Below, piece after piece: positions 17,301 to 51,670 of a stretch of 64,000 bases of DNA. The stretch's first letter is position 1. Each line of letters opens with the position of its first letter. Origin of the DNA: Panorpa germanica (lineage: Eukaryota; Arthropoda; Insecta; Mecoptera; Panorpidae); contig OY783212.1 in the NCBI GenBank assembly GCA_963678705.1, forward strand, positions 14,942,001 to 15,006,000. Reading direction: 5' to 3'. The position numbers and the translations under genes are program-made. The notes beneath the pieces were generated by a model. The model was not told the origin of the DNA. It saw nothing but the letters and a program-made list of their open reading frames with translations, and made no database searches.

Positions 17301-17992
17301 AAAATTTGTGTCCTCATTTTTTAGTGGTCGATTTTTCAATTGTTGATTGAAATTGATGTTAATAAATGTGTATTGGCGTGTCTATTTTATTAAATATCTA
17401 AATGTTGACGGAGATATAGCAATAAAAATTTAAATTGTAGTTTTAGCGCTAGAGATGGTCGGCTATATTTGTATGACATGAAATGCATTTTAACGTCAGT
17501 TATTTGTTGATTAGGTCAGTGCTGTAGTAATGTTTTGTAGCTGTTGGTAGTCGAAATAATCAAGTCAAGTCAAAGAACAATAAGTTTTTATTTTATTTAA
17601 CCCTGTTACGGCAGATATAATATTAGAATTTTATAGTTCCTTAAAATAGCTGTAAATAATATTTTGATATATAAATACCCATAGCAGAGATTTATGAGCT
17701 GTAAGGTTGGTAACCTGTAAACTTGCCAGAGTTCTATCTTGAATATGCTATCTCTTTACGCTGTTCTATAAAAGAGATAGCAACTAGCGGTTGTGATGTT
17801 ACATGCATTTGGAATGTGAACAACGTTGAATCCCTTTAATAATTAAAGAGACAAAATTACTTTTTTAATTGTTAATATCTCCGAACATATAATGAGTTCT
17901 TAAAAAATAATTGAACATTTGAAGTTCTAATGACCAACTTAATCAATATATAGTACATTTTTATAGAAATTAAGACATAAGACACAAACCCA
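17301..17992. mobile_element. Inverted-repeat element, family C copy 1
   Basis: About 690 bp, homologous along its length to 22565-23199 and 44765-45390. The right end reads GACACAAACCCA. The left end is degraded but retains TTTGTGTCCTCATTTTTTAG. It carries an extra segment around 17720-17790 absent from the other copies. No protein is encoded, so it is a non-autonomous element, and the most diverged of the three. Confidence 0.75.
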
Positions 17993-18395
17993 TTAATATG
18001 TATATGTATTTCTTGAACAGAGCTTCTTGTGAAATAGCCTACAAGATTCATCTTTTACGTATATTTGTAGTATATGTAAAATAACAAGGTGTCAGAATCA
18101 GACTAAATCATGATAAACAATACAGTCTAGTTACTCATGTAACCACAGGTAGGGTAAGTAAGGTGTAGGCAAGTTGTGGCAGGGCTGTTTCTGTTAGAGG
18201 TTACAGCAGGAACTGCGGGTTGTTTCCTAGAGAAGGCAAAGTGCCTGTCACGTCACAACGAACGCGTTGGGATTACGTCGTTTAAATTTATATTGTTATA
18301 TATTTAAGATATGAATAGTATACAATATGGGTACTAAATACAGATCTGAAATACAAACAATAACATTTGATTAATTTACCTTTCGTTAATAATTT
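17993..18395. other. Intergenic DNA, nothing recognised
   Basis: Short stretch between a family C element and a microsatellite cluster. A GC-richer segment lies at about 18150-18270. No coding or terminal-repeat structure is seen. Confidence 0.5.
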
Positions 18396-20840: not shown

Positions 20841-22564
20841 TATAATAATGACCAAAAATCAGTTATTTGTTTTCCGGCGCATAGACAATAAATGTTATCA
20901 TGACATATAACTTATACATAGTAATAGCGTCAAGCGCCTAATTAACAAAGCTTCTAAATATTTATTAAATATTCTTACATGGGGTATGAACATTTCAGGG
21001 TGATACTTATCTTGTGCTGTCAACCCATGCCACAACCTAAATACCTGTATTATACATTTGGGGAATATTAATCAGTTCCTATGTGATAAGGTACCTCTGT
21101 CTGAAAGCTGAGCTTAATATATTAATACAAGATCAAGCTGCAAATTCAAACTGATAATGAAAACCTATGAATTATCTTGAAATTTAGTCATGACGACTGT
21201 AAGCCATTTATCAAATTCTTCAAACCACGCCCCTTTCACATTTTAAGCCTATTCTCACAGCTTCTCACACCTAATATGTACTATGTACGTATTTGTTTAA
21301 TTTAAATTAATTTTGAATTATATAATATAACATGGCATTAGATATTTCATTACTAGTGGAACACCAACAAAGCCTTCTCTGAATTTGCTTTGTAGATAAT
21401 TTCGTTCATTTAACATTTATAATGATGAACGTTTTGTTATGTCTGTGTTATGTATAAATCTGAAAGAGCATCTTCATTAGAGCAAGAGCACCATATAAAT
21501 TTTTAAATGTTTATTCGCTTTCTTTTTAAAAATAAAGCAATGTTTTTTAAATAATATTTCTATGTAGTCTTGACCTTATTTTAACTAACATATTAATTAC
21601 AAATATTTGAACCATAAAATGGTATTCTTTATCCGCTTATTTGTTTAAACGGTACAAAATAACACTCATTTAATTTTGCATGAATTTTCATTGTCTCTAA
21701 ACAATAAATTGCGAGCAAATATTGAAAAACTAATTGAAACCATCCGACTGCGGAGTACGAGGGATACGGCAGGAGGCAGGGGAGTACCTCACCTCTACCT
21801 CACCCTCCACCACCACCTCGTATTTCAATAGAAGCCCCGAAGTGAAACCCGAACGCTAAAACGGATGAATGATGCTGTAAAATATTGCAAATATACTTTG
21901 TGGTTCTGAATGTAATATTTAGCTCCCTTTATACCTCTACAGAAGCCAACAAATTTCCAGATCAAAACCGCCGGATATATATCCTGTTTTAGTATCATCT
22001 GTTACTGCTACGCCGCTACGGTAGCTACGCTGGCTACGGTTTTGTAGCTAATGGATTTCGCTTGGTGAAATACATTGTCTAAATATTAAATACACTTCAA
22101 TCAAACAACTAGATGGAGTGTGTACAAAGTATCCTCCGCGGTTATCAGCTTCGTTGCCTCTGTGTAACACTACCCCGCACCCCCTGGCCCCAATGGGCAT
22201 ATTAACATCCCCACAAGCACCCATGAGATACCCATACATTGTATCGGCGATTTACTGTTCGCTTTATAACTTGTTTGCTTTGGATTTGTTTGATGAACGA
22301 GTGCGAGTATTATATTAGTTTACATATGAAGTTATTAAATTGTGTTTTTGTATGTATTCCGTATCAGATATACTCGTACATATAACAAACTCTAATATTT
22401 TACACAAATTATGGGTTAACCAAATAAAACTCACATGGATATATCGCCCTTCATATAGCTACTTTTTATATTCGAAATATATTACATAACTAGTGGAGGC
22501 GTTTCTCTATATAGCTTAAACAAAGGAATATATATATTTCAAAAATACAAATGAGTTTTCCTAA
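20841..22564. other. Intergenic DNA with GC-richer patches
   Basis: No gene is recognised. Two GC-richer patches occur, about 21745-21870 and 22000-22220. The second includes imperfect repeats of GCTACGG at 22010-22045 and a CCCC-rich stretch at 22175-22220. Short ORFs on both strands overlap it but are not recognisable. It could be conserved regulatory DNA; comparison with relatives would tell. Confidence 0.45.
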
Positions 22565-23199
22565 TGGGCTTGTGTCCTCATTTTTTAGTGGTCGATTTTT
22601 CAATTGTTAATTGAAATTGATGTTAATAAATGGGTATTGGCGTGTCTATTTTATTAAATATCTAAATATTGACGGAGATATAGCAACTAAAAGTTTGAAT
22701 TGTAGTTTTAGCGCTAGAAATGGTCGGCCATATTTGTATGACGTAAAATGCATTTTAACGTCAGGTATTTGTTGAGTAGGTCAGTGCTGTGGTAATGTTC
22801 TGTAGCTGTTGGTAGTCAAATAATCAAGTCAAATCAAAGAATAATAAGTTTTTATTTTATTTAACCCTGCTAAGGCAGACATAATATTGGAATTTAAGTG
22901 TTCCTTAAAATAGCTGTAAATAATATTTGATATTTTGATATATCAATACATATAGCAGAGATTTATGAGCTGTAAGATTGGTAACCTTACACAAGGATTG
23001 TGATGTCACATGCACTTGGAATGTGTACAACGTTGAAGCCCTTTAATAATTAAAGAGACAAAATGACTTTTTTAATTGTTAATATCTCTTAACATATAAG
23101 AAATTATTAAAAAATAATTGAACATTTGAGGTTCTAGTAACCCACTTTATCAATATATAGTACACTTTCGTAAAAATTAAGACATAGGACACAAGCCCA
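22565..23199. mobile_element. Inverted-repeat element, family C copy 2
   Basis: A 635-bp element with near-perfect terminal inverted repeats: TGGGCTTGTGTCCTC at the left and AGGACACAAGCCCA at the right. The interior is collinear with 44765-45390 and 17301-17992. There is no transposase ORF. The bases outside the ends (CTAA and TTTT) show no convincing target-site duplication, so the transposon superfamily stays open. Confidence 0.85.
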
Positions 23200-23293
23200 T
23201 TTTATGATATTGTACGAGAACTATTGTACGAGAATAGGACCAGTGCTACGGGAGCACTGTACTGTCGCGCGTTTCTTATAATAACCTTAAAAA

Positions 23294-25505: not shown

Positions 25506-26596
25506 TATAGAATAACTACAAATACAGGTTTCAGTGATTTTGAATTGAAAACAATATTTTCTTTTAATCTTTTTGCTACAAATTCAAGTCAGAGGCAGTG
25601 TGTACCTGGCCTAATCAAACATTTATTAGGTGCTACAAAACATTTCAAGCTAAATAACAACCTCGGTTCTAATTTGTTCCAGTATCTCATATAAATTATA
25701 TATCTCTGGCTTAACTCGGGTAGCACTGCTGGTAGTGGTAGTGGTGCCGTGGTGGTGTTAGTCCACAACCCTTTAGGTAACTGGTAATAGATACGGAATG
25801 AAATTATCTTCTAAAGAGCAGATTGTTGTTAAACTTTGAGACTTTTTACCACCCCATAAATTGTAATTGGTTACACAGAACAGTTACAGTTTACAGAGTC
25901 TACTATTGTTAAGTTAAACCAACGATTTAACTACCCCAGACATTTTCAGTATAAAACCTAACCTTACTCCAACACCTCCTAGACTCAGTCCCAGTCCCAC
26001 CCCTAGCTAACCCTAATGGATTAACGGGGACATAGACACCCTTGTTGAGTGTCGAAACCCTCTTCATATTAAACAGCAGGAGTTTAACGCCTTTTGTATG
26101 AAGTTGGAACGAGAGCATCGACACCGCTGGAACCGTTAACGCAACCAGAGGGTAGAAGACCAGCGTGGGGCATTTCTGTCTTAACAGAATCTTGGTTTAT
26201 AATTGATTGTCGGTTTTGGCCGTATTATAATTTACAATCAATCGCCTTCTCGAAGATATTGTTTTTATTACTTTAAGATAAATTGAGACGTAGATTGTAA
26301 GTCAGGTATAGACAACCGTTTAGTGGTTTCGATTCATTCATGAGTTTTGAACAGCTCAATGAATACCTTTTACCTTAGTTAGTTGTATTGGTAAGAAATA
26401 TTAGCGAAATCTAGGTGCCCTGCCCTTATGTATACCTCCCAGAACCGTTTTTAGACATATGAAACATAGACACGTGCCTATGAAGGAGGGGCGGTTTCGC
26501 ACCAGAAGTGCGACTGCAAGTAGAAGCTCTCCTCAATAGGACCCTAACAAATTTAATTTTATATAGTGAAAATTTAATTCATATTTTTATTAAATT
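25506..26596. other. Intergenic DNA, no gene recognised
   Basis: Contains moderately GC-rich segments at about 25960-26170 and 26410-26540, overlapped by short ORFs on both strands that I do not recognise. A short inverted repeat (ATTGATTGT and ACAATCAAT) lies at about 26200-26242. Confidence 0.45.
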
Positions 26597-26990
26597 GCGG
26601 ATAAATTGGCAAAGGAATCAATAAATTTGGAAATTGAGATGAAAGTGCAATTACCTTCATATGAAATTTTTAATATAATCAAAAAATTAAACTTCAATTT
26701 GAGAAACCAAGATTTCATTAACAAAAGTAATCATTGTAAAACTCCAGCTCACCTGTACAAAATTAATATTAAATCCGATGTTGTGAAGAAGGAACTTTGG
26801 ATCATATTATATTTGAATGCATAAATTATAGTTTAGAAAGATCAAAATTCAATAGTGAAATATTAGATGTGATTAAAACTTTTCCTGTTAATACTAAATT
26901 TTTGTTAAGTGATTCAAAATTAATTAGTGAATTATTTAAATATTTAGAAATTTGTAAAATTGAATTATAAATTGTAAAATATATATAAAA
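26597..26990 (+). pseudogene. LINE 3' end, RNase H tail fragment, copy 1
   Basis: The sequence begins inside the RNase H region (ADKLAKESINLEIEMKV), continues with HCKTPAHLYKINIKSD and, after a frameshift near 26785, GTLDHIIFECINYSLERSKF. The segment from H-I-I-F-E-C onwards resembles the C-terminal end of LINE polyproteins. The copy at 51175-51670 matches it closely but keeps about 130 bp that are missing here near 26720. It is a broken 5'-truncated retrotransposon, followed by AT-rich DNA with A-runs. Confidence 0.65.
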
Positions 26991-28258: not shown

Positions 28259-30265
28259 GTATCACTTATTTTTATAACATAAAAATAAATGTTTTTGCGA
28301 CAAGGTATAGAAGTAATAGAAAGTAATAAAAATAGTGTTTCCGAAAAAGGAAACATTCTTTGTACACTGGATCTCTACACATTAATTTCTTTTTCTATTA
28401 TTTGTGTCTAATCATAAATGTCTCTATAAAAATATTTTCTCTAAATTGCATATAAGATCAAGACAAGTTTATTATCAAATTAAAATAAATGAAGAAATTC
28501 TATATCTTTAATATTAAGGTGACCAAATATTTTTTACACTAAAGGACTGTGTACTGGAATTCTCAATGGATAAGGGTGGATGATTTGGTTTAATTTTAAC
28601 TTTATCTTTTTTAAATTTATTTTTGTTCTTAATACTTGGAAAAATATTTTACAGGCCTACAAACTGATTTGATGTCTTTTAAACGCATGAGAGCTAAAAA
28701 AATGTTATTTCTTAAAAAAATTTAAATATGCACTTCACTTCGCCATAATCGATTGTCTAAAAAAAAGAAAAATTGTAAATTATTTGTTATTATAAACGGA
28801 TCGACGATAAATAAAATTAAAAATATATGAATAATAATTACATAAACGTTTAGGAGAGTTAATGCGATATAAAAATTTTCAGATTCAACTTTTGAAACGG
28901 TTTTTTACTTTAAACTCTACCACACCGTTTTATATCTTCATTATCAAAATTATTATCCAAACAACAGCATGTCGATAAACTGAACTGCGAGAATACTTGT
29001 ATCTATAAAAACAAAGATGTTTATTTTTAGACATCGTTTAAAAAAACCTGCAAGTGTTATGTTAAATCCCGTAGTAAAAGAAATGTAGTATGTTTGTTTA
29101 TTCAATATTTTAATACACATTTACATAAATAAATATATTTGTAAATAAAATGCAAAAAAACAAATAGTTCACGGAATTATAATACAATAACATGTTTAAA
29201 ATCAAAACAATTTAAAAATGTGGTCGACCTATTTTCAGATATACAAATAAAAATAAAACATTATAAAGAAAACCACTTCCAGAAATGGTAAAATCTTTAA
29301 CTTCAAGTTACGTTATTGTTAACATTGGTTATTTCTTGAGATGTCTTTTGAAATATGTATCAATTATCGAGAAACATTGCCCATTATTTTAGCATCTTAT
29401 CATTTAAGTTTAAAATATATTTACAATGCAATACACTCTATTAAAAGAGAAGTTAAAAGAAGGTCTTTGGTAATAAAAGAAGCGCAACAGATATCTTGTT
29501 TGCGCGCTAAGCAAATATTTAAAGAATAACAGTAATAATACCTCGAGACAGTACTGTTTTTAGGGAGTTTTGTGTTTGTAGTAATTTCTCTGATATAATA
29601 TTGCTTTTCGACTATTACTAAATGTTGAAATGAGACATTCATCAACTGAAAATTGTAATGTAAAATAATATATGGAGATAATGAATGGAGGTCTCTAGGA
29701 TATGAAACTATAAATACCATTCAAATAAATTTTTTTCTCTCACGAAAACTTCAAAAATCTCAGCAAATATATAATTTTTAATGTTTCAAATTGAGATAAT
29801 ATTTTTTAATATATTTGTACATAGAAATTGATAAAAATACATTTCGTGTTATATAACATTAATACTCAAGCAATCTTGAACGTAATCATGTTATTAAACT
29901 AATATAGTACTTATTTATTACCGTCCTCATTGTGGTAAATCATGTACTTACTTAGTTACTGCAATTTATTACTCTTTTATTACCTACAGACAGATAACAC
30001 GATAAAAATACAATAATATTTGTATTATAGAGATAAGATAACATTATATAAAACAACAATATTGTTTTCCAGATGTTTATGCGGTTTGCAAGCATTGGTA
30101 GTACCATACCTCTACAGCTTACATCATGAGTTATTGAGTCACGTGATGGAAAGTTTACACTTAAATACCAGAACGAATTAGAATCTGGTGATAACACATT
30201 GTGATTTTAATGTGCTAAGACTTGTGTAGATATTCAGGTGCAGTGTTTGTGTTTATAACGGTACA
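28259..30265. other. Upstream flank of the aminoacylase gene
   Basis: Very AT-rich DNA without recognised genes. The 5' untranslated region and promoter of the aminoacylase gene should lie at the right end, but I cannot place a TATA box or start site convincingly. Overlapping short ORFs around 29340-29720 have no recognisable domain. Confidence 0.4.
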
Positions 30266-33200
30266 ATGACAGACTGGGAAAATAACAGTGCAATTAAAAA
30301 TTTTAGGGAATATTTACGTATTCCCAGCGTTCATCCAAATGTTGATTATTGTAAGTATTCAATCGCATTTACTTTTAGGTTAGAATTGCTTATCAAATTT
30401 CTTTATTTGTTAAAAGTCATGCTAAATTATATTCATACAGTTACATGTATGATTGCGTTTAGAATATATATATTGTGTATAAGGTAATGGCCACATTCTT
30501 ATTTTTGTTTACATTTTGAGTAATTAAAACTTTTCATTATATATAATAATACATAATATTAATTATTATTATGTGGCACCTCACGCAGTGCAATTACATA
30601 GGGTTCTTATTTTTCGTTGCATGTTTTCGGTGTTTTTGTTATTTAGTTTCTTGTTAAATGTTTTGCATAACCTGTTGAATTCTTGTTACGCGCTCTTTTG
30701 CGTAGACTGTTTAAAAGAAGTAAAAAAAACAAATATGCGGTCAAATCAAGCGAACACGGTGATTGATCAACATAGTTTGTTATGGTACCGGAAATAAAAT
30801 TGTTACAAACAATAAATAATTACCAAAATTAAGTTAAATCAAAATAGCGAATTTCTGTAGAAATTTTAAATGCTATCAGTATATTTTCGTAAAATATTGT
30901 CAATTTGTAAATGCTTTTGGGAAAATGGTAGTCACTAAGAGACTTTACCAATTTATACTGGATAGGATAATCTTATATTTATAAAAAAAAGGGTTTTCAC
31001 TTTTTTGAAATAATGTAGCTAAAAATTCTGTATTTGTTTTGATGTACATGAAAAGTAACGTACAAAAAATTGGTGTACTCTGCAAAGTCAATGTCAGTAC
31101 TGACAGTAATGACATTTTGTTTAGGTCTACACTTTATTAATATAAACTAGAGGTTCATTAAAGGAATAAATTAAATCTCCCTATCGCTTTAACTATAATT
31201 TCCTGTACTAAATTAACCCCACGTTATTTATAACTCATATAATGAAGAGTATTATTATTCAATGATGTTTTGTTTATGCATTTTTTAATAACATTAATTA
31301 TAATTTTGTTTTGTCAGTAAAATCAGATTACTTTCAATGAAATCGGATTTTGATTATTTTATTATAATTCGTAGGTTTCACGAAATTATTATGATTATAA
31401 AGTAACATCGATTTTGTGAATTTAATTAATTTATTCATTAATTATATAATAGTAATGTAAAGAATATGACTCTTTCCTTCCTAACTAACTTGAAGTATTT
31501 ATTTTTAGCAGGATGCGTTGAATTTTTAAGTAGACAAGCGGAGTCACTTGACTTGCCTATTACAGTCCATCATTGTTCTCCAGGAAAACCAATTGTAGTT
31601 ATATCATGGATCGGTACTAAACCTGAACTTCCGTCAGTAATTTTGAACTCTCATATGGATGTCGTTCCCGTATTTGAGGTATATAGAGTTATTTTATTTC
31701 CTAACATAATTGTATATTAAAGAATTCACCGGTTCAAAGATTTATATGATGTTACTTAATTAAGTGTTCAGAACAATTTTGAAAGGGAAGCAAGATTATA
31801 TTGATTCGATTATTATATATAAAATAAAAATAGAAATAATTAATTCTTGTTAATATAGGAAAGTTGGACTCATCCTCCTTTCAGTGCCCATCTGGACGCA
31901 GAAGGTAAAATCTTTGCTCGAGGGTCCCAGGATATGAAATGTGTTGGCATACAATTTATTGAGGCCATTCGAGAACTGAAGAACAGTAACACCCAACTGA
32001 AAAGAACTGTGCACCTAACTTTTGTACCAGGTATATTACCTACACACATCCTTTTTAAGGATTAAGAAATCTTAAGAAGCTTATAAAATAAGATATCTTT
32101 AGATTAAATATTACTAGACTTCGCATAAGTAAAATATTACATTGATTTAAGGTAATATTCATATTTTATGTGTAGCGGGTTAGCTTATATAATATTTACT
32201 AATTATATTAGGTACGTAAGAACATATATTCATTATAAACATTTTAAATGAACAGATGAAGAAATTGGAGGAGTGCTGGGAATGGCATTATTTGTAAAAA
32301 CTCCCGAATTCAGAAAATTAAATGCTGGGGTCGCAATTGATGAAGGAATTGCTAGCCCTACAGAAGATTATCCATTGTTCTATGCTGAAAGGGCCATTTG
32401 GCGTAAGTACAAACATTTATATATCCTGTAAATAATCATTAGACAGACCTTTTTTTAGATATTACCATAAAATATATTTCGTTATATCCGTATGCTTATT
32501 TAATGTATATATTATTTGTTTCAAGACTAAAGTCAAAGTAAACTTAAAAAATAAAATAAAAAACAATTAGAGATAAACTAGGAACTAATCAAATATTAAA
32601 TAGCCGAAATAAAAAATATGTTTTCATACTCATATGTTTAACAAGAAAACTTTAAATATTAGAATTAATTAAAGTGTCGTTCCACAATGTGTGCTCTTAA
32701 TTCCAAAAATAACCGGAAAGAAATTTATTTATTTTAGACGTTAATGTAAGATGTCCCGGCACACCTGGTCATGGATCATTACTTTTAAAAGAAACTGCGG
32801 GGGAAAAGATTCGATACATTATAGATAAGCTAATGGATTACAGAAAAACTCAAGAACAACTTTTGGAAGACAACCCAGATTTCACTATCGGCGATGTCAC
32901 TACAGTGAATGTAACTATGCTAAGAGTAAGTTTCATTGATTTCTTTATATTAGAAATTGTTTTCAATTGTTTCATACTAAAATTTAAATGTATATGTAAA
33001 AAATATTATTATTTCTAATCTCACTTTTTATAAATCAATCAAACCAAGTTTGGTTATGTTTATGTTATTGATTTGTTATAGATAAGGCTTTAATGAGAAA
33101 AAAAATTGATGTTAAGTGTGTAATGAATAAAATAGTATACTTTAATTTGTTACCCCATAAATAATGGCCTCATGGTTAATATATAATATAGTAATATACA

Positions 33201-36200
33201 AATATATATTTACATTCTGTGTTTAGCTTGATTGATATACATATATATATATATATATGTGGAAAACGAGAGTACAATGCCACTACTAACGTGGAAAACG
33301 AGAACTATCCAACTTCTTATGTGGAAAACAATAACCAATCCGCTAATCTGATGTGGAATCAAGGTACTCTTATTTAATTTAGGGCAAATGTCAATTCAAT
33401 TAATATTCAACTATGTAATATCTTAGTTGGTTTGTCAGGATGATAAAGAATCACATAATTGGTTTAATACATTTATTGAATAAAATAATAACGATGATAA
33501 TAATAATGATAATAATAATGATACAATATAAACGTTGGTGTTTACTTTACAAATACAGAACAATGAATGCATACACCACCTTAAGTTCTAGCTAATATAT
33601 ACTCAGTCCTACATTAGTTTTCAGCTTGACTTTAAAAAGGTTTGTTTTTATTATTTCCAAGAATACGTCTGGTTAATTTTAGTAAACACATCCCTTACAT
33701 ATTCAGTCACTGGTTTAAAGTTTCACACAATATAATTGCTTCGACCTTTCACTTGGTTTCTATTTAAAACATACCGTCATTAATCACATTCTTTATGACT
33801 TTCTTAGACCGGGTATTATAGTTACGCCTACTTTGTATGCTTAATTTATTTTTTCTTTCCACACGGCCATATGACTCCTCTTTGGCCTCCAAAGACGATA
33901 CGTCACTGCGGTCATCTGTTTGCTGTTCGGCACCTGACACAACATGTCCAGTTTCAGAATCGCTGTCGTCTGAGAACACGCCCCATAGCTTCACATGATC
34001 GGCATTTGAATGTGTATTAGAAGTACCTTCCCCTGCACCGATACGTCTTACCCTATACCGCTCATTTGGGTCATCTCCTGTAACCTCATACGGTCCTAAA
34101 TATTTCTTATGTAATTTAAATCCAGTACCAAACTGGGTTCTTTTTACGCCATCAATGTCTCCGACTTTGTATGTCCTAGCTGGTTTCCTATTTCTATTGA
34201 AATTCTTGCGATTCTCTTCCTGTGTTTTTAATATTTGTTTCTGGGCGTTAACACGTAACTCGTGGAAGTCGTCCTCACGCATTTCTCGATTACCTTTTTC
34301 TAACAGCTGAGAGATATGCGTCTCCTCATCTGTTTTCATTGTCGCACCTGTTAACAACTTGAACGGTGTAGTATTTATGCTACGCTGATAAGTTTTGTTT
34401 AATGCTTGCTCTTCGACCTTGCCGTCGTTCAACCAGGTTTCTACATGTTTCTCAACTTCTTCTTGTTCGCAGTAAGCCATACGTCGCGAATTTTGAAAAA
34501 CAGGAACCTCATCGGTCATGTATATTTCTGCTGCTTCAGTAACCCTTGTTACTTTTGGTTCATAAGTTTTAACTAGTTCCTCAACTTTAGCCCTGGCACC
34601 TGGACTAATGTTATTACCCATGACGATTTCGTCGTCGGCTACACATAATTTTTTATACTGTTCACTTTCCACGTACTTTTTTCGCATGGTAATACCGTCT
34701 ACGCTTATTATAGTTTCTACTTGATCTAGCAGAGGTTTACCGATTACAACACTATGTCTAGTTGTACTTGATGGAACTATTAAAAAGTTAGTACAGTACT
34801 GTTCATTGTCTACTTTCACTTGAGCACTAAATTCACCTAAAACTTTGATTTGAAATCCTCCGATTCCAGTCAATACAATATTGTTTTCGCGCACAACCGC
34901 TTTATTACTTAATTTAATATAATCGTCAGCTCTAATCAAATTCTGATCACTTCCGGTATCAATCAGACATTTAAAACTGATACTGTCTATGCTCATGTCT
35001 TTTGTCATATTACAGGTTTTATTTGTGTCCACTAACAAAGCATCACTTGTTTTATTCGCGGTACAATTTCTCGAAATATGTCCCTCTTCATGACATTTGA
35101 AACACTTTATTTTACTTTCACTTTTTATCTTTTCACTTGATTCATTTCTTTTACTATTAAGGTATTCGTTGCTTTTTCGGCACACGTTTTCTTTATGTCC
35201 GAGTTCATTACAATTAAAACATTTTATCGCGTTTGATTCTTTTGGTCTGTCTTTACGTACACTAAAATTATTCCTTTCTTGCACTTGCAATAGTGTCGAA
35301 TCATACCGTTTTACTTTTAACAACAAATCGGGCACTGTTTTAAAGTCGCACATTGATAACACACTTATCAAGTCTTTGTTGTTTAGTCCGGCTATTATGT
35401 ATTTTATCACGGCCTTTTCACTGATATTATCACTCTTACTGGCGATCGCTTTCACCGAGTATACATAATCTTCTATTGCTTCGTTTTTTTCTCGTTGTCT
35501 CTTCATTAGTTCCATGTGTACGTCAGATTCATCGTACTCCACTGGAAAATTCCTGATTAATTCGTATTTGAACGTCGTCCAATCCTTGACTACGTTCAAA
35601 CTAGCATCAAACCAGTTTTTCGCGGCACACTGCAGCTTGTTGACACCTTGATGAAGCTTCACTTTATCACTCCATCCATAAATGTCTGCTATTTCATCCA
35701 ATTTTCGCACCCAAGCTGTAGCCGTCAATACCGTGCTTGCTGGGTTAAACACAGGTATACATTCCAGGTTCTGTGTCGGCATAAACCCATGATGATTCAT
35801 TCTCTGTTCCTGTATTGTACTATTCCCGATACTCAACTGCAATAGTTCTGTTCTAAGCCTCGTCAGCTCTGCTTGTACTCCCAACCAACTATCTTCATTA
35901 GATGTTGAGTTACCTGAGCGTCCAGCTAACAAACTATCTTCCACAGTAGTATCGTTCATGTTTACGTTATATGCCATTTTCAATTTTCTCCTCGTAAAAC
36001 AGTTTACACACTTTTCTGATACAATTCACTTGCTAGTCCTATTATAAAGTCCGTCTTATAAATTCTCGACTATTCCGCTAATGAACTATCACTTGAAAGC
36101 ACTGTTTGTAGAAAACTATCTTGTATTATTCTTTTTTGTATTATTCACTTGTGGATAACTCGTAGATAACTAATCCGCACTTAGTTCAATTCGCTATAAG

Positions 36201-38098
36201 TTACTAATCCGCACTTCTTTGTATTATTCACTTCGCGCACTTAGTTCAATTCGCTATGAGCTGCTAATCCGCACTTCTTCTTTGTATTATTCACTTCGCG
36301 CACTTAGTTCAATTCGCTATGAGCTACTAATCCGCACTTAGTTCAATTCGCTATGAGTTACTAATCCGCACTTCTGATGTGGAAAACGAGAGTACAATGC
36401 CACTACTAACGTGGAAAACGAGAACTATCCAACTTCTTATGTGGAAAACAATAACCAATCCGCTAATCTGATGTGGAATCAAGGTACTCTTATTTAATTT
36501 AGGGCAAATGTCAATTCAATTAATATTCAACTATGTAATATCTTAGTTGGTTTGTCAGGATGATAAAGAATCACATAATTGGTTTAATACATTTATTGAA
36601 TAAAATAATAACGATGATAATAATAATGATAATAATAATGATACAATATAAACGTTGGTGTTTACTTTACAAATACAGAACAATGAATGCATACACCACC
36701 TTAAGTTCTAGCTAATATATACTCAGTCCTACATTAGTTTTCAGCTTGACTTTAAAAAGGTTTGTTTTTATTATTTCCAAGAATACGTCTGGTTAATTTT
36801 AGTAAACACATCCCTTACATATTCAGTCACTGGTTTAAAGTTTCACACAATATAATTGCTTCGACCTTTCACTTGGTTTCTATTTAAAACATACCGTCAT
36901 TAATCACATTCTTTATGACTTTCTTAGACCGGGTATTATAGTTACGCCTACTTTGTATGCTTAATTTATTTTTTCTTTCCACATATATATATATATATAC
37001 GAGTATGGTATGTGTAAAAGCAGATGTTATTTATGCATAGAAATAGTTTCATTGTAAAACACAAGAAAAATTTTATTTTCCACTAAAATTTAAATTTTAA
37101 AAGCGTATTACATTTTACATGTCTGAAAATACATTAGAGACATCAGGTACGTTTGCATATGTAAGTCTTCTATGTATTTATTATTTACAATCTCTTTTGT
37201 ATTTCAGGGAGGCGTTCAAAGTAATGTCGTTCCTCAGGAATTATCAGTCATGTTTGACATTCGTTTGGATATTAATCAAGATCACGCAAATTTCGAAAAT
37301 ATGGTATAACCATTACTTTTTTTAATTTTAGTTATTTGGGAAACAATTAAATAACAATTACATTGAGTTGTTTAATGTTTTAGATCAAGCAATGGTGCGC
37401 TGAAGCGGGACACGATGTTTTCATAGAATACGAGCAGAAAAATGTCTATATAGAACCCACTAAATTGGACAGTTCGAATATATTTTGGGCAGCATTTAAA
37501 AGTGCTACTGATGAATTGTAAGGATCGTTATATTATTGCACTTATGAAATTTCCATCCAAAATTACTATCATTATTATTATTTTAGGGGGCTGACTTTAA
37601 AACCACAAATTTTTCCCGGAGGAACTGATAGTAGATATATTAGACAGGTATTTTACTATTACATCTGATATTTTCTCCAATAACTTGTGCAGGTCGAATA
37701 TAATAAACCACCAATAATAACTTTTATCTATGAAATTTTTTTCTTCAATTCCATTTAATTTGCATATAGTTGTCAACAGAAATAATACGTAAAATATTAG
37801 TAAGTTTGTATTAATTTTTAAAATATTAGTATTTTGATTATTAATTTTTACACAATTATATAAGCGAGATAATTGACTGCTGCCCTATTAGAAAACTAAT
37901 TTCCTGTGTGAAATATAATTAAATGATAATAATAATGCTTTTATTTGTTAGGTTGGCGTCCCTGCTTTTGGATTTTCACCAATGAATAATACACCAGTAC
38001 TGCTACACGATCACGATGAGTTTCTGAAGGCAGATACTTTTCTCAGGGGTATTACAATATATAAAAAAATTATTGTGGAAGTTGCAAATATCGAATAA
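30266..38098 (+). CDS. ACY1: Aminoacylase-1, nine exons, 399 residues
   Basis: Predicted cytosolic zinc M20 peptidase that hydrolyses N-acyl-L-amino acids to the free amino acid and a carboxylate. Exons: 30266-30350, 31509-31678, 31859-32030, 32256-32402, 32738-32925, 37208-37303, 37384-37517, 37587-37647, 37952-38098. All introns are GT-AG, and phases join without a stop to 1,200 nt including TAA; human ACY1 has 408 residues. The start matches the family N-terminus ([13 protein letters not shown]). Visible motifs: SHMDVVP with metal ligand His77 and catalytic Asp79; ARGSQDMK with bridging Asp110; PDEEIGG with general base Glu144 and ligand Glu145; IDEGIA with Asp171; PGTPGHGS with His203 in the dimerisation domain; LLHDHDE with ligand His372. 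Nothing essential is missing. Intron 5 holds an antisense LTR retrotransposon. An AATAAA overlaps the stop and another lies at about 38230. The splice sites are my inference; the family assignment is very secure. Confidence 0.93.
33241..33257. repeat. TA microsatellite, left half of the LTR insertion site
   Basis: Alternating TA sequence that directly abuts the left LTR. With the matching TA run at 36984-36999 it forms one microsatellite split by the insertion. Identical TATA on both sides is compatible with a 4-bp target-site duplication, but the repeat makes its exact length undecidable. Confidence 0.85.
33258..33863 (-). repeat. 3' LTR of the LTR retrotransposon
   Basis: Identical to 36378-36983. 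On the minus strand it begins TGTGGAAAGAAAA and ends CGTTTTCCACA. An AATAAA polyadenylation signal candidate reads on the minus strand at 33472-33477. The last 100 nt of the ORF, including its stop, lie inside this LTR (33764-33863). The + strand left end has four spaced copies of TGTGGAA or CGTGGAA at 33258, 33290, 33320 and 33352. A GATAATAAT-type simple repeat lies at about 33490-33525. Confidence 0.95.
33764..35983 (-). CDS. Gag-protease polyprotein fused in frame to integrase C-terminus
   Basis: A 739-residue ORF. Residues about 75-235 form a retrotransposon Gag domain. Two zinc knuckles of CX2CX4HX4C type are at residues 255-268 and 294-307. The aspartic protease active site DTG is at 342-344 ([12 protein letters not shown]). 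Residues about 490-521 match the linker and first residues of reverse transcriptase, as in HVETWLNDG. From about residue 527 the protein is instead the end of integrase: TTPFKLLTG, then a GPY/F module with YLGPYEV near 628-634, then an acidic tail. RT, RNase H and the DDE core are absent, and the join (near 34404-34424) keeps the frame without a stop. Gag and protease share one frame with no frameshift. A complete gypsy Pol would be several hundred residues longer. Whether the fusion is translated or packaged is unknown. Confidence 0.9.
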   Translation of the reverse strand: MKMAYNVNMNDTTVEDSLLAGRSGNSTSNEDSWLGVQAELTRLRTELLQLSIGNSTIQEQRMNHHGFMPTQNLECIPVFNPASTVLTATAWVRKLDEIADIYGWSDKVKLHQGVNKLQCAAKNWFDASLNVVKDWTTFKYELIRNFPVEYDESDVHMELMKRQREKNEAIEDYVYSVKAIASKSDNISEKAVIKYIIAGLNNKDLISVLSMCDFKTVPDLLLKVKRYDSTLLQVQERNNFSVRKDRPKESNAIKCFNCNELGHKENVCRKSNEYLNSKRNESSEKIKSESKIKCFKCHEEGHISRNCTANKTSDALLVDTNKTCNMTKDMSIDSISFKCLIDTGSDQNLIRADDYIKLSNKAVVRENNIVLTGIGGFQIKVLGEFSAQVKVDNEQYCTNFLIVPSSTTRHSVVIGKPLLDQVETIISVDGITMRKKYVESEQYKKLCVADDEIVMGNNISPGARAKVEELVKTYEPKVTRVTEAAEIYMTDEVPVFQNSRRMAYCEQEEVEKHVETWLNDGKVEEQALNKTYQRSINTTPFKLLTGATMKTDEETHISQLLEKGNREMREDDFHELRVNAQKQILKTQEENRKNFNRNRKPARTYKVGDIDGVKRTQFGTGFKLHKKYLGPYEVTGDDPNERYRVRRIGAGEGTSNTHSNADHVKLWGVFSDDSDSETGHVVSGAEQQTDDRSDVSSLEAKEESYGRVERKNKLSIQSRRNYNTRSKKVIKNVINDGMF
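36171..36377 (-). repeat. Tandem repeats in the leader, with primer-binding-site-like sequence
   Basis: Between the 5' LTR and the ORF the + strand has five copies of TAATCCGCACTT (near 36171, 36205, 36265, 36328 and 36362) and four of AGTTCAATTCGCTAT, in units of about 34 and 60 bp. On the minus strand, the bases next to the 5' LTR read TCAGAAGTGCGGATTAG. Their first nine bases match the complement of a tRNA-Leu 3' region (as I recall it) lacking the terminal TGGTG. Related AAGTGCGGATTAG copies recur downstream, so the priming region appears duplicated. Confidence 0.65.
36378..36983 (-). repeat. 5' LTR of the LTR retrotransposon
   Basis: The 606-bp partner of 33258-33863, with no difference found in a line-by-line reading. 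It would hold the promoter for minus-strand transcription of the element. In this copy the stretch equivalent to the ORF end is untranslated. It is followed at 36984-36999 by the right half of the TA microsatellite. Confidence 0.95.
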
Positions 38099-39532
38099 AA
38101 TATAGATTTATGAAATATTTTCTTAAAAATTTTATTAATAGATATTAAGTATGAAATTGTTACGGATGAATAATCCATATTTGGATTTTTTACTAAGCAT
38201 TTATTTACAACTAACTATATATATAATATAATAAATTTATATAATGTAATATATTGTTTCTTAAGCTGTATCTCTAATGTTACTATACTATATAATTTGC
38301 ATTATAGTAATTTGAAGAAGTTAAACAACAATTTTTTTTATAATATTGTAATATGTATCAATAAGTGTTTTATGAACCATTAAGAATAATTTTGTTAAAA
38401 AAATATTCTAATAGCTAATTTAGAGTACAATAGTAAAATACTTTTATCGAGACTCGGTATTTTTTCAACCAAATACATATAAGCATACCTCAATATAATA
38501 CGAGAGTACATTGTTAATTATTGATTGTGCAATACTAAGATTATATGAAATATGTTTTATCTAATAAAAATTAAAAATCAAATCATTAATTTTTTTATTT
38601 CTATAATCAGAGTTTAGGAGAGGATGAAACCATACAGCACTAGACCAATTTTAGTAGAACAATTTATAGTAAAATGTTAGTAATATATTTTAAATATTTT
38701 GGTTAACGTCTTAACTATAGCCTTGTATTTCACTTCTATTTTAAAAATAGCTGGAAAATAGCTAGTTATTTTTGTAGACCAAACATTCATTTAATGATAC
38801 AAAGAATAAAGACTTTCACATGATAAATAAATAGAATTATACTTCTATTAATAATAATACAGTTTGTTCTTTAAGGCTTTAGAATTCAACAATAACAGTA
38901 GACTCCTGAGTCCCTACTTAATTTCACATAAAACTTCAGATGACATAGTTGTGTTATTTTTTCACATTATTTAAGAGAACATCTCTTTTATTCACATTCA
39001 TCTTCAAAGCTACATTAAATAAACATTTTACTTTACCAACTTTAACATAATTCTATCATAAATTTGCCATTAAAAGAATCAGAAATTCGTTTGTGTTTGT
39101 CAAAGTTTCCTTTAATCTGGACAATAAATATTTTTCTTTGCGAGACCTCAATACGGTGATTTATTCTTTGGATTTTGTGCAACCATCTATTGTCTGCAGA
39201 ATGTAAGATTACTTGGCGATGTTTTTATGATCGAAAACTAGTGATTTACTTTAAAATGCATTAGTTTGATTGAAAAGTTTAAATATAGGTTATCTACATG
39301 AAAAACTTTACTCGATAGTAGACTGAGTTGATTTATCCGATATACACCTACAAATAGAACAATAGCGCACGATATGTGAGCTATGCCATTTTATAATGAT
39401 TGTTTTCTACGGTAATATTTAGTAAGGAATCGTTTAATTAAAACAAAATAACACAGCAATTTAAAATAGTAATCCATTTTTTTGTACTACTATTTATAAA
39501 TTGTTTGTATAAATTATTTTATTTTACATTCT
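38099..39532. other. 3' flank of the aminoacylase gene
   Basis: Very AT-rich non-coding DNA with several AATAAA hexamers, the nearest at 38094-38099 and about 38230. The 3' untranslated region probably ends within the first few hundred bases. Nothing else is recognised. Confidence 0.5.
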
Positions 39533-39985
39533 TGTGCCTTAACTTATTTATTTACAGGTCATTGTGCTTAATTCAATTTTGATCCTTATTAAATCTAAAC
39601 ATTCTCATTCCTTCCAAACGAAAAAAATATATATAAAATTATCCTTATAAAAATAAGAACAAAACTGCTTCGCTCCTCCTGCTACTCTCTCTCCTGTTTC
39701 TACTCTGTTATTCTCTTTCCTCGTTCCTTTTCTCTATCTCCGCTATCCACCTCTTCTCTTCACTGCCACCCTTTAATAAGTGCCCAATATTTTGTTCGCT
39801 TATTTCCTTTTTCTCATATGAAAAATCTTTTTCTCACGTGCTCCAATGTTTCTATCTCCGTTCCGCACACCGTTTCCTCGCTATTTGCCCTGTATCTGTT
39901 TCCTTTCTCCTCGTTTCCCAATCTAAATCTGGCAATCCTTCTCGTTTTACTAATTCTTTTAAGAAATTACTCTAAACATTCACAG
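39533..39985 (-). pseudogene. LINE 3' end fragment, minus-strand copy
   Basis: Reverse complement of the sequence at about 46640-47110. It starts with the element's 3' untranslated part (complement of TTGTGCCTTAAC) and continues into the region encoding the C-terminal tail, including the segment for RIARFRLGNEEKRNRY in degraded form. Frameshifts are present. The high-C+T look of 39660-39770 is the complement of the purine-rich LINE tail. Confidence 0.65.
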
Positions 39986-42905: not shown

Positions 42906-44764
42906 ATATAAAAGTTATAGCTAGCTGCAGATACTTTGTATTTTAAGACTCTGGTTTGTTGGTTTCTGTAACGATAGAAGGAGATATCTTTTTGTAACTC
43001 ATTTCATTCTATTTTTAAAAGAAGAACTATTTTATTTCTAAAGAGAGAATCATTCTAGTTTCGAGTTCTGAGCGAAATAACAACGATTCTAAATTCAAAA
43101 TGAAATTTTTGATATTCCAAATTCCTTATTCTAAGTTTATATTCTGAATTAAATAAGTCACTAAAATAAAAACATATTATTATGTAGATTAAAAAGAAAT
43201 TAAGACTATTTGACTTAATTATAACTAAATTCATAACAACAATTAAATTACTTAAGTTCAGCCATAGCTGTTCGATTCGTTGGAAGATTTAATTCTTGGG
43301 GATTTGTAATCGGCTTCATACGACCACCAGCTAAATATTTCACTAAACAATTATTACGAATAATCGATTCTAAAATACTCATTAATTATGTTGTGTAAAT
43401 TTTCTGTTGAAAGTAAAATTTCACAAATCTATATTCAATAAACGTAGATGTAACGATTCCATTTTACCGTTTCTTGTATCAGTACTGTTTTTATAGTCAG
43501 ACAAATAGTCCCTTGTGTTTAGCACTTGAACAAATTGGGTGTATCAGGTCATAAAACAACCCTGCAGGGATCAAAGAGGCGCACACCAATCGATAAGTTC
43601 GATTTTCACGTATCAACGTTTCACATTAAGTTGAAAAGTTTTTCTTTTTCAAACTGAAGGATTATACCTGATCACAACATGGACTATGACTCAGTACATG
43701 ACAGCGTATTGAAACCTTTTAAGTAAATGTCGTTAATGTATTGACGTTATAATATTGTAGATGACTATAAAAGTAATTGGTTGAAAAAATATTTTAAGAA
43801 GTTTCTTTCTTAATGCAGTAGTAATTGTAGACTATAATTATTAGTCAGAGTGACTTAAAATTGATTTGGAGATGAAATTAAAGATTAGAAATGATGGAAT
43901 ATAGTAGTACACACCGTTTTAATAAGAAAGAGGCGTCTAAAGTTTATTTTAAACCATTTTTTTACAGTGTATTTCAAATTACATATACTTAAAATACTTT
44001 TATAAATTTATGGCATTACAAGTAACTTATGGTCAGACAACAGACCATATTCTTTATTTGAATCTAGTTTTTATAGATTCTTTATGCCCTAATATTATTA
44101 TCTTCTATATCTTCATCATATCACTGCTATTACAATTTCAAATTCAATACATATAAAAAAGCTAAAATATATATTACTATTTAGTAATAAAAAGTTGAAA
44201 TTTTTAGATTTATTATCTAAATAAATGTATAAAATAAATCTTTCCAGAAGCTGTTTTGAAACCAGCTAACAAGGAGTGAAAGCATCATCCCTCACTTCTT
44301 TAGAGTACCTCCTGGAGCAAGAAAGGGATCTAGGGACGAGTTTCCAAACTCAAAATAAAAAGAATGGAAAGTTACAGGCGGTGACTTTAAAAGTTTCACA
44401 CAAAACAATCATAAAACTTTGAATGCAGATTACATCAAACTGCAGAAATATCCAAATTCAAAGTTTTGTAACCTCTGCACGGAAATAACAATCTACTCTT
44501 ATATTTATGGCTGTTGTGATATTCTTATATTCGTATGTTTGTTTAAATAGAATTAATAATAAAAATCAAAAAAGTTATTCAAATTTTAAATTATAATTAT
44601 TAGGTCGAAACAGAATTTAAAAAAGACGCTTTATGTTCCCGCCTACTGTGTTGTTGACTTTAATTAAAAACAAAACTGTTTGCATTGAATACAAAAAGTA
44701 AACAACAACTAACTTTAAAAATAATGAATATAATAATTAAAAATATATAAATATAAAAAGTGAA
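42906..44764. other. Intergenic DNA, nothing recognised
   Basis: AT-rich sequence without recognised genes or element ends. Confidence 0.5.
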
Positions 44765-45390
44765 TGGGCTTGTGTCCTCATTTTTTAGTGGTCGATTTTT
44801 CAATTGTTCATTGAAATTGATGTTAATAAATGTGTATCGGCGTGTCTATTTTATTAAATATATAAATGTTGACGGAGATATAGCAATTAAAAATTTGAAT
44901 TGTAGTTTTAGCGCTAGAAATGGTCAGCCATACTTGTATGACGTGAAATGCATTTTAACATCAGTTATTTGTTGAGGAGGTCAGTGCTGTGGTAATGTTT
45001 TGTAGCTGTTGGTAGTCGAAATAATCAAGTCAATTCAAAGGGTAATAAGTTTTTATTTTATTTAACCCTGCTAAGGCAGACATAATATTGGAATTATATT
45101 TTCACTTGAATTAGCTGTAAATAATATTTGATATTTTGATATATAAATACATATAGCAGAGATTTATGAGCTGTAAGGTTGGCAGCGGTTGTGATGTCAC
45201 ATGCATTTGGAATGTGTACAACGTTGAATCTCTTTAATAATTAAAGAGACAAAATGACTTTTTTATTTATTAATATCTCTTAACATATAAGGAGTTATTA
45301 AAAAATAATTGAACATTTGAGGTTCTAGTAACCCACTTTATCAATATATAGAACACTTTTATAGAAATTAAGACATAGGACACAAGCCCA
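44765..45390. mobile_element. Inverted-repeat element, family C copy 3
   Basis: A 626-bp element with ends TGGGCTTGTGTCCTC and AGGACACAAGCCCA, collinear with the copy at 22565 and lacking a transposase. The immediate flanks (TGAA and TTTA) again give no clear target-site duplication. A 71-codon ORF crossing the left end is not a gene. Confidence 0.85.
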
Positions 45391-46586
45391 TTTAAACATG
45401 AAGACATGTAAACACACCCGTACCCGTTAAATAGTTGGCTTTATGAAAATAAAGTGAAATTATTATAAATTCAAACATCACTTAAACGCAACGATCTAAT
45501 ATTTTCATGTTTTCCCAAGGAACGTGTTTAAAATCTTAAAAGCAAAATATCAAAGTGAAGTAATTTTAAGTCCTGGACCATCGTCGTCTCGTGGCAGAGT
45601 GCCCAGACGCCGATAACAAGTGAGCCCTAGACGTTACTCAAGTATCGTCACGTCGACAGGAGGTATCCTGGAAGAAACGTGTTTACAAAATATTTATCGA
45701 CAACATTAAACCGCATGTCTGCGCCTGACGAACAAGCATCGGCCACCATTCTTACTCATAGCTCATTCTCAGACCTAGTGAAGCACGTTGTAAACTGAAA
45801 AAAAGGATATGTTGTCATTTTTTATAACCGATATATAATGTCTTATTATTTTATATTGTCTTATTCAATCATCTGAGTGGTTAGAGATTTTATTTTAGTT
45901 TATAAAGCTCAAAATAAAACCATTTCTAATATAGTATATGATTTTCATTAAATTTGTAATAGGGTTATTCCGAAAGAAATAATAATTGATACAACCAGTG
46001 GAACATAATTTATAAGTACTGTTAAATACTAGCCAGTAAAAGTATGTTAAGTTTACCACAAGCAATTAAATGAGTCAATTTTTTCACAATCTGTATTTGT
46101 AACACTGTATTATATACAAAGGGAGCTTAAAAGCTTTATGTGGTAATCCCACCCTATTGTCGTCTCAGGTAGAGGATTACAGCCATACATAAGACTAGAA
46201 TTGAGAAGGGCTAACAATTATCTTGAAGATAAAATTTAGAACCTTCAATTTTTCAACTAAGTGTTAATATTTTATAAAGAAAATATTTGGATTTCTTCTA
46301 TTATTTTTGTTTCGAGAGGCAATAATGATTTCGCGTTTTCTTAGATTTGCATAGATTACTCGTTAAGCAGAATTGCATAAATATATGCATTGTGCTCTTT
46401 CTACTATCAGGTTTGGATGTTGTTTAATTTGAAAATGAATATATTAAACCAATTCTATATTACCAAATATAATATAAATCTTAACATATATGAATGTAAT
46501 ACATAATCTAGAATGAAAAAGAAGAATAATAATAGAATAGAAAAAATAATAGAAAATTATTCAAAAAATTAATAAAAACTTCTCAA
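45391..46586. other. Intergenic DNA with a GC-richer patch
   Basis: The segment 45575-45790 is clearly GC-richer than its surroundings and contains a forkhead-like TGTTTAC (about 45680). No ORF of note overlaps it. It is a candidate conserved non-coding element. The rest is AT-rich and unremarkable. Confidence 0.45.
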
Positions 46587-47148
46587 AGAAGAGAAGAAGG
46601 CACAAGTGTTGAAGAGGAGCTAAGAAGAAGAGATAGGGAGATACAACAACAGGAAAGAATGGAAAAAATTGAGAAGAGTAATTATAACAAAAGATATTAA
46701 AGGATTTGCGAGAGAGAGAGAATACTTAAGAGAAAAAGACACAAAAAACATGAGAAGGATTGCCAGATTCAGATTGGGAAACGAGGAGAAAAGAAACAGA
46801 TACTGGCCAAATAGCGAGAAAGGATGTGCAAGGTGTGCAGAACGGAGATAGAAACATTGGAGCACATTAAGTTTTCATGTGAGAAAAAGGTAATAAGGGA
46901 AAGGAATATTAGGCAGTTATTAAAGGGAGGCAGTGAAAGAAAGAGGTGGATGCCGGAGATAGAGAAAAAGAACGAGGAAAGAGAAGGAAGGGCAGAGTAG
47001 AAACTGGAGGGAGAGTAGCAAAAGGAGTGTTTAGATATAATAAGGATCAAAATTGAATTAAGCACAATGAGATGTAAATAAATGAGTTAAGGCACAAGAA
47101 TATAGTGCCAAATGGCAAAAACATTAAAAATAAAAAAAATAAAAAACT
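46587..47148 (+). pseudogene. LINE 3' end fragment with A-rich tail, plus-strand copy
   Basis: Purine-rich sequence that encodes the C-terminal tail of a non-LTR retrotransposon protein: RIARFRLGNEEKRNRYW, then a Cys-rich GCARC, then IETLEHIKFSC in a shifted frame. The R-x-A-R-F-R-L-G-N-E and C-x2-C...E-T-x-E-H-x-x-x-x-C pattern is common at the end of insect LINE ORFs. It ends in an A-rich tail (AAAAATAAAAAAAATAAAAA) near 47130-47148, typical of LINE 3' ends. Upstream domains are missing. A homologous copy lies inverted at 39533-39985. Confidence 0.7.
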
Positions 47149-51174: not shown

Positions 51175-51670
51175 TGTATGTGGATACCGGGACATTGTGG
51201 AATAAGAGGAAATGAAATTGCGGATAAATTGGCAAAGGAATCTATAAATTTGGAAATTGAGATGAAAGTGAAATTACATTTATATGAAATTTTTCAACTT
51301 CAATTTGAGAAACCAAGATTTCATTAACTAAAGTTAGTTAAAAGGAAGAGATTATTCTATGTTACATCCAAATTTAAGTAAGAAGAGATAGTTTAGAAAT
51401 GAGTCCCGCTTAATTATATCAACTATATTCACAATCAAAAGTCATCATTGTAAAACTCCAACTCACCTGTACAAAGTTAATATTAAATCCGATGTTGTGA
51501 AGAAGGAACTTTGGATCATATTATATTTGAATGCATAAATTATAGTTTACATAGATCAAAATTCAATAGTGATTAAAACTTTTCCTGTTAATACTAAATG
51601 TTTCTTAAGTGATTCAAAATTAATTAGTGAATTATTTAAATATTTAGAAATATATTAATAAAAGTCAAGC
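51175..51670 (+). pseudogene. LINE 3' end, RNase H tail fragment, copy 2
   Basis: The frame starts KCMWIPGHCGIRGNEIADKL and continues AKESINLEIEMKV. The W-(I/V)-P-G-H-C-G-I-x-G-N-E-x-A-D-x-L-A pattern is the RNase H signature near the end of Jockey/I/R1-like LINE proteins, with His and Asp of the active site present. Downstream it aligns with 26597-26990, retaining extra sequence at about 51310-51440, but stops and frameshifts break it. It ends with repeated AATA units and an A-run at about 51670-51695, a typical LINE tail. Confidence 0.7.

Follow-up and report, generated by a model that had tools for sequence, protein, structure and literature searches.

The 64,000-nt stretch of Panorpa germanica DNA analysed here (contig OY783212.1, positions 14,942,001 to 15,006,000; the window below) contains an LTR element whose single long reading frame passes from Gag and protease directly into the end of an integrase. 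This raises the question of how an element of such a layout came to be at the locus: as a copy of an already deleted form, or through a deletion suffered by this one copy. On balance we lean towards the former: a Ty3/gypsy-type element whose Gag-Pol frame lacks ~650 codons, predicted to supply Gag and protease itself, probably spreads as a derivative that borrows reverse transcriptase (RT) and integrase.

Structure of the element and its insertion site

The element spans 33258-36983 on the minus strand (3,726 bp), exactly where the sequence-only reading had placed it, and is bounded by two 606-bp LTRs of the TG...CA type with the termini TGTGGAAA...TTTCCACA (Table 1). The LTRs had been described as identical, and the comparison gave 0 differences over 606 positions. 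Both flanks consist of (TA)n, which leaves a target-site duplication unreadable. The element is likely a recently inserted LTR retrotransposon. No third LTR copy is listed in the 64-kb window, and neither ORF patterns nor a 24-nt LTR pattern revealed further copies in viral contigs. A 30-bp tandem repeat lies at the 3′ end of each LTR (33258-33329, 36378-36449); in the 5′ LTR this repeat crosses the LTR border and reaches the primer site.

Judging from motif matches, the cis signals expected for copying appear to be mostly present, comprising the LTRs, a primer site, and TATA-like and AATAAA sites. The TATA-like box and the AATAAA motif, which occurs three times in the LTR, stand in a plausible order. 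The putative primer site, TCAGAAGTG-C-GGATTAG, adjoins the 5′ LTR as in LTR retrotransposons and is tRNA-Leu-like: from the third base of the fly tRNA-Leu primer onwards, 15 of 16 bases agree, and one extra base is present (the reverse primer used for comparison is the one printed in PMC11495624). Its 9-nt core occurs a single time in the window. At the opposite end, the stretch adjoining the 3′ LTR, presumed to prime the plus strand, contains no clean purine run that would qualify as a polypurine tract; it codes for YGRV, and several relatives end there in DGRV/DGRM-like residues.

The untranslated leader contains 0 ATGs; 2000 dinucleotide shuffles averaged 7.3, and every one of them had at least one. 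For the 177 leader nucleotides outside the repeats, 0 ATGs compare with a mean of 2.8, and 2% of the shuffles had none. R-U5, taken from ~30 nt behind the TATA box, contains two ATGs, and the transcript may therefore have other ATGs ahead of that of gag. Five copies of the 12-nt AGTGCGGATTAG lie in the repeated part of the leader. This motif forms the inner portion of the primer-site-like sequence, and its recurrence gives the impression of a duplicated primer region.

Exon-like peptides were read by eye on the plus strand at ~30.24, 31.48, 32.74, 37.2, 37.4, 37.6 and 37.95 kb. When joined, they match both chains of the aminoacylase-1 structure 1q7l (E 2.8e-24 and 3.6e-15); three host exons taken alone gave no Pfam match, and the exon set is partial. 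With such exons on both sides, the element is placed antisense in an intron of a predicted aminoacylase-1-like gene. The exons span 30241-38098 and flank the element.

Identical LTRs are a recognised assembly hazard, and the structure could be an artefact in which two elements were collapsed or a full-length element was mis-joined. We find this scarcely credible and the least probable of the explanations considered, as the LTR ends are exact on both flanks, the primer site is in place, the frame is kept to the base, and the host exons are ordered on either side.

The reading frame and the missing enzymes

The ORF at 33764-35983 is the only one of at least 150 aa listed in the 64 kb, counting ATG, GTG and TTG starts and frames without open ends. 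Translation probably begins at the ATG at 35977 (context AAAATGGCA, with A in position -3 and G in position +4), and the final 33 codons lie within the 3′ LTR. Pfam searches up to E 1 returned Gag, zinc-knuckle, Arc-capsid and protease families and one DUF match, and no RT, RNase H or integrase family. The capsid region also matches Arc structures in the PDB (best E 0.007), and residues 81-230 are predicted to be helical (pLDDT block means of 81-93). Both zinc knuckles are intact, as are the fold and DTGS motif of the protease in the predicted structure; the protease region was the part compared by fold as a separate domain, and among the rows shown only proteases were recovered. The integrase tail is predicted to form a helix (552-595) followed by strands (610-666).

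Table 1. Features of the element, given in window positions; residue numbers refer to the 739-residue frame.
Feature	Position	Strand	Remarks
5′ LTR	36378..36983	-	606 bp, matches other LTR 606/606
TATA-like box, 5′ LTR	36715..36721	-	LTR position 263; consensus match only
AATAAA polyadenylation-type signal, 5′ LTR	36592..36597	-	LTR position 387; consensus match only
Primer-binding-site-like sequence	36361..36377	-	directly inside 5′ LTR; tRNA-Leu 3′ region match, 1 extra base and 1 mismatch
Untranslated leader	35978..36377	-	400 nt, ATG-free
Leader tandem repeats	36154..36373	-	63-bp and 34-bp periods
Single ORF	33764..35977	-	737 aa from ATG; 739 aa from TTG at 35983
Gag capsid region	35267..35722	-	residues 88-239 of 739; Retrotrans_gag E 1.9e-6
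Zinc knuckle 1 (CCHC)	35180..35221	-	Pfam (two stretches) and conserved columns
Zinc knuckle 2 (CCHC)	35063..35104	-	zf-CCHC E 8e-8, best stretch 292-308
Aspartic protease	34679..35020	-	residues 322-435, DTGS
Stub of region before RT domain	34412..34600	-	residues 462-524; alignment to relatives
Deletion junction	34406..34414	-	in frame
Region behind integrase core	33983..34408	-	residues 526-667; GPY motif in C-terminal domain
Presumed plus-strand primer region	33864..33890	-	adjoins 3′ LTR; read from sequence
3′ LTR	33258..33863	-	606 bp

A protein search with the ORF yielded five proteins among 7,993 candidates scored out of 5.8 billion. P0001, a Trachymyrmex Gag-Pol gene model, ranks first, with 27% identity over 60% of the query; none of these scored candidates is near-identical. 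P0001 as a query recovered 72 proteins, itself included, and a profile search with the ORF and the Molorchus protein P0049 gave seven, two of them new (P0077 and P0078). The named relatives of the ORF are arthropod proteins. We aligned 35 of the 78 proteins found, namely those ranking highest in BLAST with the ORF (P0032 and P0044 excepted), together with P0077 and P0001; without P0049 and P0001, these form a set of 33 relatives (32 from the P0001 search and P0077). All of them are Gag-Pol polyproteins of 1,261-1,562 aa, for which the precomputed Pfam assignments list rve in 33/33 and RVT_1 in 32/33. In the Gag N-terminus of the ORF (residues 1-87, 35723-35983), alignment blocks of 47 and 168 columns present in other rows are missing.

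Alignment to one relative, P0025, delimits the missing part: ORF residues 86-525 align to 198-629, and 517-677 to 1272-1432. The gap between them includes RVT_1 (641-802), RNase H (868-995, both families), H2C2 (1076-1131) and rve (1153-1237). Its size is 648-657 residues in 32 of the 33 relatives (median 650), which corresponds to a deletion of ~1.95 kb; it is 491 residues in the Teleopsis gene model P0033, itself gapped in that part. The tail of P0025 starts ~30 residues past the E of NGQVER, which we take to be the catalytic E of integrase. Tail alignments beginning at ORF residues 512-528 show 36-46% identity, with P0001 aligning at 570-652 only.

The Gag, NC, PR and IN tail of the ORF are collinear with the 33 relatives, and on this collinearity with Ty3/gypsy Gag-PR-RT-RH-IN polyproteins we class the element as Ty3/gypsy-type. 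The loss of RT, RNase H and the integrase core, already read from the letters of the window, is borne out by Pfam, by the P0025 alignment and by the P0025 domains that fall inside the gap, and the in-frame join lies within the region then named (34380-34440). Judged by these three functions, the element is not autonomous: since RT, RNase H and the integrase zinc finger and catalytic core are absent, it cannot move alone. The sequence-only description stands in these respects: an LTR element, non-autonomous and likely recent, in which Gag, protease and integrase tail are fused in frame.

The retained parts differ in how well they follow the relatives. The ORF keeps 13/15 and 19/24 conserved positions in the two tail halves, where the relatives keep medians of 0.94 and 0.96; the corresponding counts are 19/36 for the capsid, 10/11 for the protease and 9/12 for the RT stub. 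The RT stub and the integrase C-terminal domain (19/24) retain fewer conserved positions than in nearly all relatives, which might be a weak hint of relaxed constraint, in a sample of one. For the tail we draw no conclusion of this kind, given that nearly all relatives were chosen from the Gag side, through words taken from residues 1-500 of P0001, and that a single query was compared; the same choice biases the Gag comparison. By both conserved columns and pairwise identity, the capsid is far below every relative, the knuckles are low, and the protease is normal. The capsid has diverged beyond what the tail would lead one to expect, in a comparison set biased toward P0001-like Gags. It is possible that the integrase tail still contacts chromatin or Gag.

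Origin of the junction and probable mode of spread

Three other arthropod proteins read as Gag(-protease) plus an integrase tail: Molorchus P0049 (750 aa), Rhipicephalus P0003 (791 aa) and Rhamnusium P0002 (585 aa). Neither RT nor rve was found in them by Pfam (E 0.1). We did not count them as genomic deletions, since they come from annotated contigs of 152-336 kb and may be gene models with predicted introns. P0049 is 31% identical to the ORF over 622 columns and is joined at nearly the same integrase residue; it breaks off at a P and continues behind a Q that is shared by 33 of 34 aligned proteins. In its nearest relative, P0022 (52% identity on one side and 69% on the other), that P is followed by V (GTN), and the join of P0049 may be a predicted GT-AG intron. 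Across the 34 rows, the residue after this P is I in 23 (the next nearest relative, P0026, included), V in 10 and M in 1, and the join may also be a true deletion. The same doubt applies to P0003 and P0002. If P0049 is a true deletion, it favours the view that such derivatives recur: since the RT-side ends differ, derivatives of this layout would have arisen more than once.

The position of the P0049 join bears on a further possibility, namely that the Panorpa element descends from a reverse-transcribed spliced mRNA of a parent that splices out RT and integrase to obtain extra Gag-protease. BARE1, with its one ORF, is reported to make a spliced Gag RNA (PMC3735527), and the Q after which P0049 resumes could be encoded by CAG, a splice acceptor. 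The donor side argues against such an origin. In the 33 of 35 proteins that have a residue behind stub residue 524, this residue is never V (GTN) and is instead P in 27, E in 2, and R, I, H and S in one each; the next residue is S or C in 32 of the 32 having one. As far as the relatives' residues show, a GT donor at the junction is therefore not favoured, and we regard splicing as a highly improbable source of the deletion.

The sequence-only reading had argued for spread of the deleted form on the ground that decay would not leave 739 codons open. This argument is weak: the identical LTRs leave little time for stops to accumulate, and a deletion is in frame by chance one time in three, so the open frame does not prove spreading. 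The same appearance would result from a deletion that arose while this copy was being made or shortly after it had inserted. What favours a pre-existing derivative is that in comparable families most new insertions stem from the deleted form, as reported for mouse IAP IΔ1 (PMC6466679) and for cattle D-type ERVK, where defective copies dominate new insertions (PMC10924933). In Arabidopsis, the TR-GAG element AT5TE33540 is reported to have transposed (PMC8704663).

A one-off deletion would have required that a full-length RNA was packaged and that RT skipped ~1.95 kb by a template switch at short homology, the deleted form never having been copied as a unit. Such an event predicts the same structure, again with a one-in-three chance of keeping the frame. 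The join would also allow a homology of a few bases, judged from the relatives' residues: a conserved Q precedes their tail, and their RT side has mostly P, with E in two. Nothing direct speaks against this event; its prior is lower, since amplifying deleted families supply more deleted copies, as we infer from the IAP and bovine ERVK accounts cited above. We therefore regard a one-off deletion as unlikely, though quite conceivable. Loss of the segment within the genome after insertion of a full-length element is very unlikely: a young insertion would have identical LTRs in this case too, but a second rare event would be required soon after insertion, and in frame.

Borrowing of enzymes from a full-length relative is, in our analysis, the best reading of the element. 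We counted in favour of a spreading derivative the identical LTRs, the primer-site-like sequence, the (TA)n target, the intact protease and knuckles and the ATG-free leader, and against it the extra base and mismatch in the primer site, the lack of a clean polypurine tract and the lack of a near-identical protein among the 7,993 candidates scored. For such a derivative, the deletion would predate the insertion at this locus. Transcription would start from the LTR, and translation from the ATG at 35977 would give Gag-protease with the tail. The element's Gag could build particles alone or mixed with the Gag-Pol of a helper, into which the element's RNA would be packaged; the helper RT would copy this RNA, primed by tRNA-Leu, and the helper integrase would insert the DNA into a TA-rich site. 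In addition, the fusion protein may act in cis to the benefit of the RNA that encodes it, which is what has been reported for mouse IAP IΔ1 (PMC6466679).

A more far-reaching version of borrowing, which we consider rather unlikely, is a self-favouring parasite lineage of the arthropod mdg3 type. Many copies would then share this junction, and the protein would gather its own RNA and steer the helper-made DNA into chromatin in cis; such a lineage would parallel mouse IΔ1 independently in invertebrates and would restrain its helper family. If several copies do share the junction, the element would represent an invertebrate IΔ1 counterpart, a deletion derivative that retains Gag and protease, has dropped the copying and insertion enzymes, and may outcompete its helper. 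One could then ask whether such parasites win through retaining a translated Gag, and whether an integrase tail devoid of its core is useful. Should it exist only once, it amounts to a young defective intronic insertion of an ordinary kind.

Comparable elements and neighbouring repeats

The kind of element is already known, from mouse IAP IΔ1 and plant TR-GAG. Mouse IAP IΔ1 (1Δ1) has an internal deletion of ~1.9 kb, compared with ~1.95 kb in the Panorpa element, and its join likewise gives one open Gag-Pol fusion frame in a non-autonomous element (PMC6466679). IΔ1 differs in being a mouse endogenous retrovirus whose deletion takes part of gag and pol, whereas the Panorpa element keeps the Gag and protease domains and has lost RT, RNase H and the integrase core. 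IΔ1 is reported to depend on helper proteins, and its fusion protein to act in cis (PMC6466679); both would apply to the Panorpa element by analogy. With its in-frame Gag-Pol fusion by internal deletion, the latter is IΔ1-like only, and we claim no membership in the IAP family.

Plant TR-GAG elements have LTRs and one Gag ORF and no RT or integrase, and one of them was seen transposing (PMC8704663). The Panorpa element shares the LTRs and a Gag ORF without an RT or integrase catalytic domain, but its ORF is not Gag alone, as it also keeps the protease, the RT-side stub and the integrase tail. Spoink, of the gypsy/mdg3 group, has a Gag-Pol polyprotein, a predicted primer site right after the LTR and an AT-rich target (PMC10965091), comparable to the (TA)n insertion site here; its LTRs are of the TG...TA type, in contrast to TG...CA in the Panorpa element. 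The gypsy/mdg3 likeness is one for which the absence of RT makes an RT phylogeny impossible. BARE2 and BARE1 are likewise a helper-dependent subfamily and its single-ORF helper (PMC3735527), although BARE2 is described there as unable to make Gag and as using BARE1 particles, whereas the Panorpa element keeps Gag and lacks the enzymes. Among insects, the CM-gag of Culex pipiens, known by its title in the references of PMC3286476, is said to be a transposable-like element holding gag only. Among the literature matches listed, given as titles and the starts of abstracts and covering few subscription papers, there was no animal element with a Gag-protease-integrase-tail layout.

Other repeats are present in the window. 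The stretches 26589-26958 and 51212-51658 are duplicates of one another (94% alike over three pieces); by eye, their sequence resembles the RNase H part of a non-LTR retrotransposon. An apparent dispersed repeat occurs in three copies (17298-17995, 22563-23202 and 44763-45393), the last two of which are 92-95% alike in pieces. Finally, 39525-39948 and 46747-47104, ~7 kb apart, are related to each other in inverted orientation, with pieces that are 87-93% alike.
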